In this document: piece by piece, positions 11,027-16,237 of the stretch
How positions within the stretch are numbered: the stretch's first letter is position 1
How the letters are laid out: each line of letters starts with the position of its first letter
Origin: Modestobacter versicolor
Lineage (GTDB): Bacteria > Actinomycetota > Actinomycetes > Mycobacteriales > Geodermatophilaceae
Reading direction: 5' to 3'
Assembly (NCBI RefSeq): GCF_014195485.1
Contig: NZ_JACIBU010000001.1
Coordinates: forward strand, 1,426,001-1,490,000
Length of the DNA: 64,000 nucleotides
Position numbers and translations under genes: made by a program
Notes under the pieces: model-generated
Database searches by the model: none
What the model was told of the DNA's origin: nothing
The model's input: the letters and a program-made list of their open reading frames with translations, nothing else

Positions 11027-11985
11027 GCGCCGTCCCGCCGGCCACCCGGGCCGAGCAGCAGGCCGCGCTGGACGCCGCCTACGCGGTGTGCCGGGGCATC
11101 GCCGCCGAGCACGGCAAGTCCTACTTCCTGGCCACCCGGCTGCTCACCCCTGACCGCCGGCCGGCCGTCCACGCCCTCTACGCCGCCGCGCGGGTGGCCG
11201 ACGACATCGTCGACGTCGGCGCCGACCAGCCCGGCCGCGACCCCGAGGGCGAGCTGCTGGCCTGGTCGAAGGCGGCACTGGAGGAGCTCGAGGCCGGCTG
11301 GTCCGACGACCCGGTGCGGCTCGCGCTGGTGCACACCTACCGCCGGTACGACATCGCGCGGGAGCACCTGGTCGACTTCCTGGCCGCGATGACCAGCGAC
11401 CTCGACGTCACCGGCTACGCCGACCTGGCCGCCCTGGACCGCTACATGTGGGGCTCGGCGTCGGTGATCGGCCTGCAGGTGCTGCCGGTGCTCGGCACCG
11501 CGCCCGGCGTGGCCCGGGAGGAGGCCGCCCCGCACGCGATCGCGCTGGGCGAGGCCTTCCAGCTGACCAACTTCCTGCGCGACGTCGGCGAGGACGTCGA
11601 CCGCGGGCGGGTGTACCTGCCCGCCGACCTGATGGCCGCCCACGGGGTGACCCGCGAGCAGCTGGAGTCCAAGCGGTTCGACGACCGGTTCCGGCAGCTG
11701 ATGCGGGAGATGGTCGAGGTGGTCCGCCGCCGCTACGACGACGCCGCGCCCGGCACCCCGATGCTCGCGCCGGAGTCGCGGGACTGCGTCCGGGCCGCCA
11801 CCGAGCTGTACGGCGGCATCCTCGGCGCGATCGAGCGGGCCGACTACCGGGTGCTGGACCGCCGGGTGTCGGTGTCCCGGCCGCGCCGCCTGGCGGTGTT
11901 CGCCCGCCGGTTGACCGCCGCCCAGCTGGCCAGGGTCAGCGTGACCATCGCCCAGCCGAAGAGCAGGTCCTCGACCGGGGCGTAG
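11023..11985 (+). CDS. crtB: phytoene synthase
   Basis: A 320-residue squalene/phytoene synthase with the two Mg-diphosphate binding sites: VADDIVDVG (about residues 57-65) and NFLRDVGEDVDRGRVYLP (about 183-200). It joins two GGPP molecules head to head into phytoene. It is coupled to crtI by a GTGA overlap. Its last 142 bases overlap, on the opposite strand, the end of the lycopene cyclase subunit gene at 11844-12191, so the two C-termini are encoded by the same DNA. Confidence 0.95.
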   Translation: MSAVPPATRAEQQAALDAAYAVCRGIAAEHGKSYFLATRLLTPDRRPAVHALYAAARVADDIVDVGADQPGRDPEGELLAWSKAALEELEAGWSDDPVRLALVHTYRRYDIAREHLVDFLAAMTSDLDVTGYADLAALDRYMWGSASVIGLQVLPVLGTAPGVAREEAAPHAIALGEAFQLTNFLRDVGEDVDRGRVYLPADLMAAHGVTREQLESKRFDDRFRQLMREMVEVVRRRYDDAAPGTPMLAPESRDCVRAATELYGGILGAIERADYRVLDRRVSVSRPRRLAVFARRLTAAQLARVSVTIAQPKSRSSTGA

Positions 11986-12191
11986 GCGATCCGCGGCCCC
12001 CAGATGGCGTCGGGGTCGTAGGTGACCACGCCCAGGCCGGTCAGCACCCCGTTCATGAGCAGCTGGAAGAACACGATGATGGCGTAGGCGGTCCAGTAGA
12101 CCGGCCGGGTCACCATCCGGGTCCGGTAGACCGCGAGGTCCAGCACCAGCACCGCGACGACGGCGGTGACCGCCAGGGCCGAGTAGCTCAC
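11844..12191 (-). CDS. crtYd: lycopene cyclase subunit, CrtYd/CarR type
   Basis: A 115-residue membrane protein with about three helices and the heterodimeric lycopene cyclase motif APVEDLLFG (PxE(E/D)xxF, about residues 71-79), plus YTAYAIIVFF-like helices. With CrtYc it forms the bacterial heterodimeric cyclase that closes beta or epsilon rings on lycopene. GTG 12191 overlaps the crtYc stop (GTGA). The tail, rich in arginine, lies entirely inside the antisense of crtB; the family core ends near residue 95, so the overlap may reflect a C-terminal extension. Confidence 0.88.
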   Translation of the reverse strand: MSYSALAVTAVVAVLVLDLAVYRTRMVTRPVYWTAYAIIVFFQLLMNGVLTGLGVVTYDPDAIWGPRIAYAPVEDLLFGWAMVTLTLASWAAVNRRANTARRRGRDTDTRRSSTR

Positions 12192-12532
12192 GCGTCGGCC
12201 TCCTCGGCGGGGTAGCCGGCGTCCCAGCCGGTCACCTTTCGCACCGCCTCCAGGGCCAGCACCGAGGCCAGCGGGACGACGAGGAAGAACAGCACCTCCT
12301 CGACCGGGATGCCACCGGGCAGCCGCACCCCGAGGGTGTGGTCGTCGCTGTAGTCCCAGTGGCCCTCGGCGATGGCGTACAGCACCCAGACCACGAACAC
12401 GGCGAACTCCGGCAGCACCGCCAGCACCAGCCGGCGCCAGCGGGCGTAGACCCGCACCCCGAGCAGCAGCTCCAGCGGTGCGGTGACGACGAGGCAGCCG
12501 ACCAGCAGCGACAGGTAGGTCAGGTGCCCCAT
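12188..12532 (-). CDS. crtYc: lycopene cyclase subunit, CrtYc type
   Basis: A 114-residue membrane protein beginning MGHLTYLSLLVGCL with the motif GIPVEEVLFFLVVPLAS (PxEExxFF, about residues 72-88) that marks lycopene cyclase domains. It pairs with the next gene, crtYd, to form a cyclase. Its ATG at 12532 is 13 bases from the stop of the Rv2175c-like gene upstream on the same strand, so the two may share a transcript from the promoter at 12866-12886. Confidence 0.9.
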   Translation of the reverse strand: MGHLTYLSLLVGCLVVTAPLELLLGVRVYARWRRLVLAVLPEFAVFVVWVLYAIAEGHWDYSDDHTLGVRLPGGIPVEEVLFFLVVPLASVLALEAVRKVTGWDAGYPAEEADA

Positions 12533-12545
12533 CAGCCGGCGACGA

Positions 12546-12869
12546 CTACAGCGCCAGGGCCTGCGCCCGGCGGGTGACCTCGGTGTGCCGGTCGTCGCGC
12601 AGGGCCTGGACCGGGGTGCCGGGCAGCGAGTCGTCGGCGCGGAAGAGCCACTCGAAGGCCTCCTCGTCGGTGAACCGGCCGTCGTGGAGCACCGTGAGCA
12701 GACCGGGCAGGTGCTTGAGGACGGCGCCGTCCTGCACGAAGTCCGCCGGGATCTTGCTGTTGCCGCTCCCGGGGACCGCCATGAGCTTCCGCTCGGCGAT
12801 GAGCTGGCGGACCTTGTTCGTCGAGACGCCGAGCTGCTCGGCGACCTCCGCGGGGGTGAGCGTGTCCAT
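12546..12869 (-). CDS. Rv2175c-like winged helix DNA-binding protein
   Basis: A 107-residue protein: an N-terminal helix-turn-helix of excisionase/MerR type (LTPAEVAEQLGVSTNKVRQLIAERKL, residues 4-29, quoted only to show spacing of A, G and R), then a C-terminal helical half ending TRRAQALAL. The order and length match M. tuberculosis Rv2175c, a DNA-binding protein phosphorylated by the neighbouring kinase PknL; here a PknL-like gene lies 1.3 kb away, so the same pairing is likely. Start ATG 12869 lies inside a palindrome that also holds the divergent gene's start, suggesting autoregulation (inference). Confidence 0.85.
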   Translation of the reverse strand: MDTLTPAEVAEQLGVSTNKVRQLIAERKLMAVPGSGNSKIPADFVQDGAVLKHLPGLLTVLHDGRFTDEEAFEWLFRADDSLPGTPVQALRDDRHTEVTRRAQALAL

Positions 12870-12886
12870 AGGCTCCCAGCCTATGG
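12866..12886. promoter_or_regulatory. symmetric bidirectional leaderless promoter palindrome
   Basis: Arms CCATAGGCT and AGCCTATGG, separated by ccc, form a perfect palindrome. On each strand it reads TAGGCT, 8 nt, ATG: plus strand -10 at 12869-12874 and ATG 12883; minus strand -10 at 12883-12878 and ATG 12869. Each -10 overlaps the other gene's start codon, so the two promoters should be mutually exclusive and any factor binding the palindrome would block both. Confidence 0.75.
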
Positions 12887-14016
12887 CGAGTGCGCAGGAG
12901 CCGACGACCGGTCCCCGGCTGACCCAGCGCCGGCGGGCGGCCGGTGAGCCGGCGCACCCCGCCGACCCGGCGTACCTGGACCTGGACGCGCTGGAACGGC
13001 AGGCCCGCGAGCTGCTCCCACCCGACGTCGTCGACCACTTCGCCGGCGGCGCGGACCGGGAGACCACGTTGGGCGAGGCGACCGCCGCCTGGCGGGCCTG
13101 GCGGTTGCGGCCCCGGGTGCTGACCGACGTCGGCCCGGTCGCGCTGGCCACCACGCTGCTGGGCACCGACGTCGCCACCCCCGTCGGGATCGCGCCCTGG
13201 GCTCACCAGGCGATGGCCCACCCCGAGGGCGAGCGCGCGACCGCGCGGGGCGCCGCCGCCACCGGGGCGCTGGTGACCGTCTCGACCAGCTCCACCACCT
13301 CGCTGGAGGACGTGGCCGCTGTGCGCCCGACCGGCCCGCGCTGGTTCCAGCTCTACCGGCTGCACTCCCCCGCGCACACCGACGACCTGGCCCGCCGCGC
13401 CGGCCGGGCCGGCTACACCGCCCTGGTGCTCACCGCCGACCTGCCGGTGCTCGGCCGGCGGCTGCGCGACCTGCGCAACGACTTCGCGCTGCCGGCGGGG
13501 CTGCCGCTGCCGCACCACCCACCCGCCGACGGCACCGGGCCCGCGCCGGCCGGGACGCCCCGCTGGACCACCGCCGACATCGCCCGCTTCGCCGACCTCT
13601 CCGGGCTGCCGGTGGTGGTCAAGGGGGTGCTGCGGGGCGACGACGCCGCCCGCTGCGTGGCCGCCGGGGCCTCGGCGGTGTGGGTGTCGACGCACGGCGG
13701 GCGCCAGGCCGACCCGGTGGTCGCCAGCGCCGCAGCGCTGCCGGAGGTCGTCGAGGCGGTGGGCACCGAGGCCGAGGTCTACGCCGACGGCGGCATCCGC
13801 TCCGGCTCGGACGTGCTGACGGCGCTCGCGCTCGGCGCCCGGGCGGTCTTCGTCGGCCGGCCGGCGATCTGGGGCCTGGCGACCGGGGGCGCGGACGGCG
13901 TGGCGCGGGTGATCGGCGGGCTGACCGGGGAGCTGGCGCACACCATGGCGCTGTGCGGACTCGACGACGTGCGGGCGGTGGGCCGGGACGCCGTCGCCCG
14001 CGCGGCATGGCGCTGA
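12883..14016 (+). CDS. FMN-dependent alpha-hydroxy-acid oxidase/dehydrogenase
   Basis: A 377-residue TIM-barrel flavoenzyme of the lactate/glycolate oxidase, LldD and lactate 2-monooxygenase family: PVGIAPWAHQAMAHPEGE near residue 100, WFQLYRL, ALVLTADLPVLGRR, VVKGVLRGDDA (catalytic lysine), STHGGRQAD (the S-N/T-H-G-G-R-Q motif with catalytic His and Arg) and YADGGIRSGSDV. It oxidises an L-2-hydroxy acid; which one is unclear. Asn in SNHGGRQ is Thr here. The ATG 12883 is set by the palindromic promoter it shares with the Rv2175c-like gene. Confidence 0.9.
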   Translation: MASAQEPTTGPRLTQRRRAAGEPAHPADPAYLDLDALERQARELLPPDVVDHFAGGADRETTLGEATAAWRAWRLRPRVLTDVGPVALATTLLGTDVATPVGIAPWAHQAMAHPEGERATARGAAATGALVTVSTSSTTSLEDVAAVRPTGPRWFQLYRLHSPAHTDDLARRAGRAGYTALVLTADLPVLGRRLRDLRNDFALPAGLPLPHHPPADGTGPAPAGTPRWTTADIARFADLSGLPVVVKGVLRGDDAARCVAAGASAVWVSTHGGRQADPVVASAAALPEVVEAVGTEAEVYADGGIRSGSDVLTALALGARAVFVGRPAIWGLATGGADGVARVIGGLTGELAHTMALCGLDDVRAVGRDAVARAAWR

Positions 14017-14212: not shown

Positions 14213-16237
14213 GTGGACACCGTCGTGACCGACCCCGTGGTCGGCCTCGTCCTCGAGGGGCGCTACCGCCTCGAGGAGCGGCTGGCGCGTGGCGGCATGT
14301 CCACCGTGTACGCGGCCACCGACCTGCGCCTGCACCGCACCGTGGCGGTCAAGGTGATGGCCGAGCACCTGGCCCACGACCCGGCGTTCGTCGACCGGTT
14401 CACCCGCGAGGCCCGGGCCACCGCGATGCTCAGCCACGTCAACGTCGTCTCGGTCAGCGACCAGGGCTCCGACCAGGGGCTGGTCTACCTGGTGATGGAA
14501 CTGGTCCGCGGCCGCACGCTGCGCGACCTGCTGCAGGCCCGCGGCCGGCTCACCGTCGGGGAGGCCTTCGCCGTCCTCGAGCCGGTGCTCGCCGGGCTGA
14601 CCGCCGCCCACCGGGCCGGCATCGCGCACCGCGACGTCAAGCCGGAGAACGTGCTGATCTCCGTCGAGGGCCAGGTGAAGGTGGCCGACTTCGGGCTGGC
14701 CCGCGCCGTGGCCGGCACCGGGCAGACCAGCCACACCGGCGGCGTGCTCATCGGCACGGTCGCCTACCTCTCCCCCGAGCAGCTCGAGCGCGGGCGCAGC
14801 GACGCCCGCAGCGACGTCTACGCCGCCGGCGTGATGCTCTACGAGCTGCTCACCGGCCACCCGCCCTACGCCGGCGACAGCGCGCTGGCCGTCGCCTACC
14901 AGCACGTGCACCACGACGTCCCGGCCCCCTCGGCCGAGGTGCCCGGCGTGCCGTGGCAGGTCGACGAGCTGGTCGCCCGCACCACCCGCCGCGACCCGGC
15001 CGCCCGACCGCTGGACGCCGGTGCCTTCCTCGCCGAGCTCACCGACCTGCGCGCCGACCTGGGCCTGGCCCGGGTGCCGGTGCCCACCGGGCGGCCCGCC
15101 GACAACCCGACCGCGACGCTGCGGCCCACCAACCGCCCTACCGCGCCGCGACCGCGCCACCCGAGCGCACCCGCGCCCGCCGGCGACCCCCGCACCGAGG
15201 TCATCGGCGGCGCCCGGGTCCCCCGCGGGCGGGACGGCCGCGGCACCACGGTGCTGCCCGGCATGGGCGGCGGCCCGACCACCTCGGTCGGCCAGGCCCG
15301 TCCCGGTGTCGCGCCCCGGCAGCCGGTCGCCCGGCCCGGCGTGCCGCCGCACATCCGGCGTCGCCGTGCCCGGTTCGCCCTGGCCCTGGTGCTGCTGCTG
15401 GCGATCACGATCGGCGCGATCGGCTGGTGGCTCGGCTCCGGCCGCTGGGTCGACGTCCCGGAGCTGGTCAACCAGGACCAGGACACCGCGATCGGCATGC
15501 TGCAGGAGGCCGGGCTGGACCCCGCCCTGGCCGACGAGCAGTTCAGCGAGACGGTCCCCGCCGGTGTCGTCATCTCCGCCGACCCCGCCGACGGCGAGGC
15601 GATCCGCGGCTCCGACGTCCAGCTCGTCGTCTCCAAGGGCCCGGAGCGGTTCGAGGTCGACCCGGCGCTCACCAGCCTGCCGCTGGCCGACGTCCAGGCC
15701 CAGCTGGGCACCCTGCCGATCGCGACCGCCACCCGCGAGCAGTTCTCCGACGACGTCGACGCCGGCCTGGTGCTCGGCTTCGAGCCGCAGGCCGGCACCG
15801 ACCTCAAGCGCGGCGACACCGTCACCATCGTCGTCTCGGCCGGGCACTCCCCGGTCGACGTGCCCAACGTGGTCGGCCAGTCCCCCGACGCCGCCCAGGG
15901 CACCCTCGAGCAGCTCGGCTTCACCGTCGAGCGGGACACCGGCCGCAGCGCCGCGGTGGGCACCGGGCAGGTCATGGGCGTCGACCCCGGTCCGGGCGAC
16001 GGCGAGCAGCCCTACGGCAGCACGGTGACCATCACGGTGTCCGAGGGGCTCCCCCAGGTCGCCGTCCCCGACGTCACCGGCAAGAAGAAGGACGACGCCG
16101 TGAAGGCGCTGGAGGATGCCGGGCTCAAGGTCCAGGTCCAGCAGTTCTTCGGCAACAACGTGCTGCGCCAGACGCCGTCGGCCGGCGAGACCGTCGACGT
16201 CGGGTCGACCGTCACCATCCTCGTGACGTTCGGGTGA
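14213..16237 (+). CDS. pknL: serine/threonine protein kinase with PASTA repeats (PknL-like)
   Basis: A 674-residue receptor kinase. The kinase domain (about residues 12-275) shows the glycine loop LARGGMSTVY, ATP lysine in VAVKVM (about residue 46), catalytic HRDVKPEN (about 137-144), DFGLA and GTVAYLSPEQ. A Pro/Arg-rich linker leads to one membrane helix (about 385-405) and four extracellular PASTA repeats with repeated VPxVxGxxxxxA patterns. PASTA kinases sense muropeptides or lipid II and control cell division and wall growth. Position beside the Rv2175c-like gene and before aroG argues for PknL; mycobacterial PknL lacks PASTA repeats but other actinobacterial PknL proteins have them. Confidence 0.93.
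   Translation: MDTVVTDPVVGLVLEGRYRLEERLARGGMSTVYAATDLRLHRTVAVKVMAEHLAHDPAFVDRFTREARATAMLSHVNVVSVSDQGSDQGLVYLVMELVRGRTLRDLLQARGRLTVGEAFAVLEPVLAGLTAAHRAGIAHRDVKPENVLISVEGQVKVADFGLARAVAGTGQTSHTGGVLIGTVAYLSPEQLERGRSDARSDVYAAGVMLYELLTGHPPYAGDSALAVAYQHVHHDVPAPSAEVPGVPWQVDELVARTTRRDPAARPLDAGAFLAELTDLRADLGLARVPVPTGRPADNPTATLRPTNRPTAPRPRHPSAPAPAGDPRTEVIGGARVPRGRDGRGTTVLPGMGGGPTTSVGQARPGVAPRQPVARPGVPPHIRRRRARFALALVLLLAITIGAIGWWLGSGRWVDVPELVNQDQDTAIGMLQEAGLDPALADEQFSETVPAGVVISADPADGEAIRGSDVQLVVSKGPERFEVDPALTSLPLADVQAQLGTLPIATATREQFSDDVDAGLVLGFEPQAGTDLKRGDTVTIVVSAGHSPVDVPNVVGQSPDAAQGTLEQLGFTVERDTGRSAAVGTGQVMGVDPGPGDGEQPYGSTVTITVSEGLPQVAVPDVTGKKKDDAVKALEDAGLKVQVQQFFGNNVLRQTPSAGETVDVGSTVTILVTFG

Follow-up and report, generated by a model that had tools for sequence, protein, structure and literature searches.

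The window, a 64,000-nucleotide stretch of the Modestobacter versicolor genome (contig NZ_JACIBU010000001.1, positions 1,426,001 to 1,490,000), contains two divergent genes whose start codons lie within one short palindrome. On the minus strand is a 107-aa protein in which both the winged-helix domain (PF21531) and the C-terminal domain (PF18367) score above cut-off, which places it in the Rv2175c family. On the plus strand is a 377-aa FMN-dependent alpha-hydroxy-acid oxidase/dehydrogenase (PF01070), related to lactate and glycolate oxidases of solved structure; searched against NCBIfam, it gave six matches, none at cut-off. The original prediction had identified this same gene pair. The kinase gene beyond the oxidase owes its PknL label to its position next to the Rv2175c-like gene, an assignment that we take over as an assumption. 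The names crtYc and crtYd are those of the original prediction, and the profile matches on which the two genes were recognized are common to both subunits. The relevant features, among which the -10 elements are putative, are as follows.

11844..12191, minus strand: second lycopene cyclase subunit, crtYc-like (TIGR03462, PF18916), with a 4-nt overlap with the 12188..12532 gene
12188..12532, minus strand: lycopene cyclase subunit, crtYd-like (TIGR03462, PF18916), downstream of the Rv2175c-like gene
12546..12869, minus strand: Rv2175c-family winged-helix protein, 107 aa (PF18367, E 8e-27; PF21531, E 4.4e-12; PDB 2kfs, E 1.1e-17)
12867..12869, minus strand: ATG of the Rv2175c-like gene, with 12869 as its presumed transcription start, from the window sequence and open frame
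12869..12874, plus strand: TAGGCT, -10 element for the FMN oxidase, with its first T base-paired to the A of the minus-strand ATG
12875..12877, no strand: centre separating the hexamers, 3 bp, whose length fixes the gap on both strands
12878..12883, minus strand: TAGGCT, -10 element for the Rv2175c-like gene, with its first T base-paired to the A of the plus-strand ATG
12883..12885, plus strand: ATG of the FMN oxidase, with 12883 as its presumed transcription start, from the window sequence and open frame
12883..14016, plus strand: FMN-dependent alpha-hydroxy-acid oxidase/dehydrogenase, 377 aa (PF01070, E 4.6e-111; PDB 7f22, named L-lactate oxidase, E 7e-109)
14213..16237, plus strand: PASTA-domain Ser/Thr kinase, PknL-like by position (NF033483, 619.7 bits; four PASTA stretches and a kinase domain)

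The distance from the oxidase to the PASTA kinase is ~0.2 kb in the window, compared with ~1.7 kb in many Blastococcus loci.

In the window sequence, the palindrome consists of the arms CCATAGGCT (12866-12874) and AGCCTATGG (12878-12886) around a CCC spacer (12875-12877). On the plus strand, TAGGCT (12869-12874) is followed after 8 nt by the ATG at 12883-12885, and on the minus strand, TAGGCT (12883-12878) is followed after 8 nt by the ATG at 12869-12867, with coordinates exactly as had been predicted. The two presumed transcription starts, 12869 and 12883, are thus 14 bp apart. No third exact copy of TAGGCT-N8-ATG was found in the window besides the two at 12866-12886. The minus-strand frame remains open farther upstream of the 12869 ATG, reaching 210 aa from a GTG; the equivalent Rv2175c-side ATG is present in most loci of the family, with a GTG or an unclear start in the rest.

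We then asked how unusual such an arrangement is in its own genome. The dyad CCATAGGCT-N3-AGCCTATGG has a single copy in the 4.59-Mb genome, as does the looser form CATANNNT-N1-4-ANNNTATG. Perfect dyads with 9-bp arms and spacers of 0-10, counted in a sliding fashion, number 34 in the window and 296 in 464 kb of the genome (the window plus 20 stretches of 20 kb, holding 346 crudely called genes), and 17 of the 296 have a spacer of 3. A perfect dyad alone is therefore weak evidence, being not unusual here; its coincidence with both start codons is beyond chance. In the same 464 kb, TANNNT precedes in-frame ATG or GTG codons 16, 15 and 11 times at gaps of 6, 7 and 8 nt, respectively, and 0-2 times at every other gap from 0 to 15; out-of-frame codons gave no peak at gaps 6-8. 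Because TANNNT peaks at 6, 7 and 8 nt, the gap of 8 is normal for this genome, yet it is the rarest of the three enriched gaps.

To place the site in an evolutionary context, we compared it across the family Geodermatophilaceae. The Rv2175c-like gene was found in 110 of 112 family genomes, and we read 110 loci from 109 genomes, one matching genome being left out and one giving two loci. Counting the oxidase as present when more than 300 query residues were covered, it lies beside the Rv2175c-like gene in 72 of the 110 loci and is missing or a remnant in the other 38. The interlocked, start-codon-anchored form, with TANNNT at a gap of 6-8 on both strands, occurs in 59 of the 72 oxidase loci, and in all 59 each hexamer opens with a T that is base-paired to the A of the other gene's ATG. 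These loci were selected by the left (oxidase-side) hexamer; the right one was unselected, and it conforms to TANNNT in 59 of 59. A 3-bp centre, with a gap of 8, is found in 54 of the anchored loci; three have a centre of 2 bp and a gap of 7, and two have 1 bp and a gap of 6. Both strands shift jointly because of this T-A pairing between each hexamer and the opposite start codon. The oxidase-side hexamers read TAGGCT (22), TAGGGT (17), TAGAGT (14), TAGGAT (2), TAAGCT (2), TAAGGT (1) and TAGACT (1). Of the 61 loci with both the -10 sequence and the ATG, 57 have a frame of at least 340 aa from the equivalent oxidase ATG; the other four are G089, G029, G012 and G015. Within the family, the pattern is nearly restricted to this locus: CATANNNT-N1-3-ANNNTATG matches 63 of 112 genomes (backwards control, 11 of 112), 61 of these 63 at the Rv2175c/oxidase locus, with five further places elsewhere.

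If the oxidase-side hexamer serves the oxidase, it should follow the fate of that gene, and the comparison showed that this -10 sequence is absent where the oxidase is missing. Outside g7-g9, our labels for three genera whose oxidase loci do not have the anchored form, TANNNT is present on the oxidase side in 59 of 60 oxidase loci, compared with 2 of the 38 loci lacking the gene (Fisher p 3e-23 for the 2x2 counts 59, 1, 2 and 36, g7-g9 left out and relatedness ignored); the other 36 of the 38 have no fit to TANNNT there. The two exceptions, G089 and G029, have lost the intact oxidase (gone or a remnant) and still hold its -10 sequence. On the Rv2175c side, by contrast with the oxidase side, the hexamer persists either way: TANNNT stands at a gap of 5-9 in 68 of the 72 oxidase loci and in 32 of the 38 oxidase-less ones, and is specifically TAGGCT in 57 of the 68 and 30 of the 32. 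No Rv2175c-side hexamer was found at a gap of 5-9 from the extrapolated start in the remaining 4 of 72 and 6 of 38 loci. When oxidase-less loci were selected for the Rv2175c-side hexamer at gap 8 (n=28), 5 retained the other hexamer's A and 14 retained its final T; in such column counts the selected bases are fully conserved by construction and are not evidence. A side observation in these same 28 selected loci is a minus-strand C two bases upstream of the Rv2175c-side hexamer in 28 of 28. Separately, the oxidase frame is shortened in G012 (L095, 184 aa) and G015 (L093, 270 aa), both of which keep both -10 sequences; recent damage or a sequencing error is suggested.

Since related genomes are not independent, we also followed the two characters on a tree built from Rv2175c and PknL protein pieces (73 rows, from 74 loci less one lacking a usable PknL match). 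On this tree the oxidase state changes 10 times and the -10 state 11 times. Supported branches yield 4 independent pairs, of which 3.5 on average agree, with one disagreeing in 9 of 200 pairings; with 4 such pairs the smallest attainable p is 0.125, short of significance. With relatedness considered, the association between the gene and its -10 sequence rests on few events. A DNA tree (12 and 14 changes, 6 supported pairs, median p 0.0625) was rejected, as it grouped together the rows without carotenoid genes and raised a long-branch warning from the program. In the protein tree, L047, from a record titled 'UNVERIFIED_ORG: Bacillus sp. AZ43', groups with Blastococcus and is probably mislabelled.

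The 13 of 72 oxidase loci without the anchored form comprise G106, g7 (1), g8 (3) and g9 (8), and their promoters were read by eye. In G106 (L039, uncultured Modestobacter 2B2-61; also L010), the oxidase start lies 156 nt away; the oxidase there has TAGGCT-GCGGCC-ATG (N6) and the Rv2175c-like gene TAGGCT-GACGGG-GTG (N6). The separate oxidases of g7 and g8 have TAGGGT-N6-GTG (G071), TAGGGT-N6-ATG (G072, G073) and TAGGGT-N7-ATG (G075). In g9, whose named records include Klenkia and Modestobacter Leaf380, all 8 loci have candidate hexamers that overlap at a TA and start codons spaced 22-24 bp apart (hand count); the oxidase-side candidate reads TAGGTC in all eight and has no fit to TANNNT. The original prediction would have been contradicted by relatives in which one arm is lost while both genes and their starts are kept. 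By eye, none of the 13 is such a case, the oxidase start being elsewhere in each.

Taken together, these comparisons argue for the proposal of two divergent leaderless promoters, each with its -10 element over the other gene's start codon, and the site is very probably a start-codon-anchored bidirectional promoter serving two leaderless genes. RNA polymerase would recognize TANNNT on either strand, and transcription would begin 6-8 nt further on, at the first base of the ATG, giving an mRNA without a leader that would be translated as such. The -10 elements and start codons would interlock through the base pair between the initial T of each -10 and the opposing start codon's A, with an equal gap on both strands. 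Given that hexamers and start codons are interlocked, the dyad would arise from the promoter geometry, and it looks like a by-product of it. It would come from the two start codons together with the hexamers' T and A and with second codons that start with G (Ala; Asp or Glu). The arms would then be symmetrical apart from the three free -10 bases, matched in some species and unmatched in others. 

The palindrome had also been proposed as an ideal binding site for the Rv2175c-like protein, in which case it would be an operator through which the dimeric protein regulates its own gene and co-controls the oxidase. The product is indeed a winged helix of DNA-binding type, the window arms are perfect over 9 bp, and the near-invariant Rv2175c-side TAGGCT exceeds what TANNNT demands. 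This hexamer is stricter than a -10 element requires, and the promoter reading offers no explanation for it. However, only three bases per arm are free, the outer bases being fixed by the start and second codons, and at these the arms do not co-vary across the family, the check that the original prediction had put forward. Identical arms occur in 21 of 59 loci, compared with a shuffle mean of 21.5, and 78% of 10000 shuffles reach 21. Left-arm variants stand opposite an unchanged right arm in 36 of 37 cases, and right-arm variants are matched in 1 of 3. Moreover, 36 of the 38 oxidase-less loci keep the Rv2175c-like gene without the left-arm hexamer, and the dyad has no second copy in the genome. 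We therefore regard an operator as highly improbable. Another reading keeps only the Rv2175c-side promoter as functional, with the plus-strand TANNNT a coincidence or leftover and the oxidase expressed by other means. The Rv2175c-side hexamer is the more conserved of the two, and in g9 the oxidase-side hexamer is imperfect; against it stand the 59 of 60 versus 2 of 38 distribution above, with its disregard of relatedness, and the separated oxidases of G106, G071-G073 and G075 bearing their own TANNNT-N6/7-start, and this reading is very unlikely.

A further possibility concerns what two such close promoters do to each other. It had been predicted that polymerase occupies the site in one direction at a time, giving built-in exclusive expression of either the Rv2175c-like gene or the oxidase. 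The first part is likely to hold as a momentary steric exclusion: with -10 elements 3 bp apart on opposite strands, the geometry would not admit two polymerases together. A mutually exclusive switch does not follow from it. In the available text on five tested E. coli bidirectional promoters, basal activity was too low for competition, which appeared once one direction was strongly activated (PMC12825309). In addition, 38 of the 110 loci retain the Rv2175c-like gene but lack the oxidase. A switch is thus very unlikely. In the bidirectional promoter that we favour, one polymerase would act at the site at a time, and interference would matter only if one direction were strongly activated.

The Rv2175c-like product had further been described as a PknL-type substrate. 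From the ATG at 12869, it has only six residues ahead of the part aligning to residue 35 onward of PDB 2kfs, which we take to be Rv2175c, with a chain that may include a tag. With the start as assigned, the window protein would begin near the winged helix and lack the N-terminal extension that bears the acceptor threonine; it does have threonines at positions 3 and 5 (T3 and T5). That threonine, phospho-Thr9, is in a disordered N-terminal extension described, in the part of the source available, as M. tuberculosis-only (PMC4601284). A PknL-type substrate is thus not supported, as the extension that has the PknL site in M. tuberculosis appears absent, and the PknL link seems weaker than supposed.

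The site shares its main features with bacterial bidirectional promoters described by Warman, Grainger and colleagues, namely a short near-symmetric region, -10 elements for both strands and polymerase working either way, as far as the accessible text of these reports goes (PMC12825309, PMC10268837). They are defined there by opposite-strand transcription starts 7-25 bp apart (PMC10268837); the commonest form has one shared -10 and starts 18 bp apart, with 10 and 23 also common (PMC12825309). Unlike the 18-bp class, here two hexamers lie 1-3 bp apart, presumed starts are 12-14 bp apart, and both coincide with start codons; in the window the hexamers are separate, 3 bp apart, and no -10 is shared, while each strand has a -10 sequence, in the window as in all 59 anchored loci. 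The start-codon spacing of 22-24 bp in g9 is near the 23 class. The site also resembles the leaderless TANNNT genes of Actinomycetota, with a -10 a few nucleotides before the start codon and, presumably, no leader. In M. tuberculosis, according to the portion of that study available, TANNNT lies 7-12 bp upstream of 73% of primary starts, leaderless transcripts are common, and closely juxtaposed divergent promoters are called common, prpD/Rv1129c both being leaderless (PMC3898074). The window gap of 8 is likewise among the three enriched in its own genome. In contrast with those cases, two opposed leaderless genes appear interlocked here, and a hexamer shared with a start codon is not described in the available text of PMC3898074. 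As in divergent overlapping promoters of the EcoRV type, core promoters overlap and two polymerases cannot co-bind; those are under a C protein, as the accessible part of the report describes (PMC5333194), whereas no controller is known at the Modestobacter site. A literature search at the level of titles and abstract openings, covering few subscription journals, returned neither a pair of leaderless promoters that share start codons nor any transcription-start mapping in Geodermatophilaceae.

We conclude that the site is well supported by the sequence comparison as a real and conserved bidirectional promoter, a very compact variant of the known kind. If the starts are as presumed, the two start codons, -10 elements and transcription starts all fit into 19 bp, and a control region for two divergent genes can hardly be much smaller. 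Conservation across much of the family, together with the absence of the -10 where its gene is missing, provides a natural test of which bases matter, and the site would join two themes studied separately, leaderless actinobacterial genes and bidirectional promoters. It also cautions against taking every perfect dyad at a divergent start for an operator, since promoter geometry can produce one.

Start-codon-anchored bidirectional promoters may, more tentatively, recur across Actinomycetota as a class of their own, employed again for unrelated gene pairs and acting as a genetic lock over much of a family, in which neither start-codon A could change without harming the other gene's -10. We consider this generalization possible and somewhat short of an even bet. 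A phylum-wide search for the pattern matched 143 of 296 genomes, with many control matches too, so that it gives no claim of enrichment outside the family. We checked 28 of these loci for frames and took five to Pfam. The same interlocked geometry is found in other Actinomycetota at L264:1503-1516, between a luciferase-like monooxygenase and a GNAT gene, and at L271:1503-1516, between an M24 peptidase and a 61-aa frame with a SPOR match below cut-off; both pairs looked convincing. L265 and L268 (RHH genes) and L272 (helicase) were left uncounted, their opposite frames having no Pfam match. Rv2175c-like genes themselves are also present in 12 loci of other families of the order (L249-L260).
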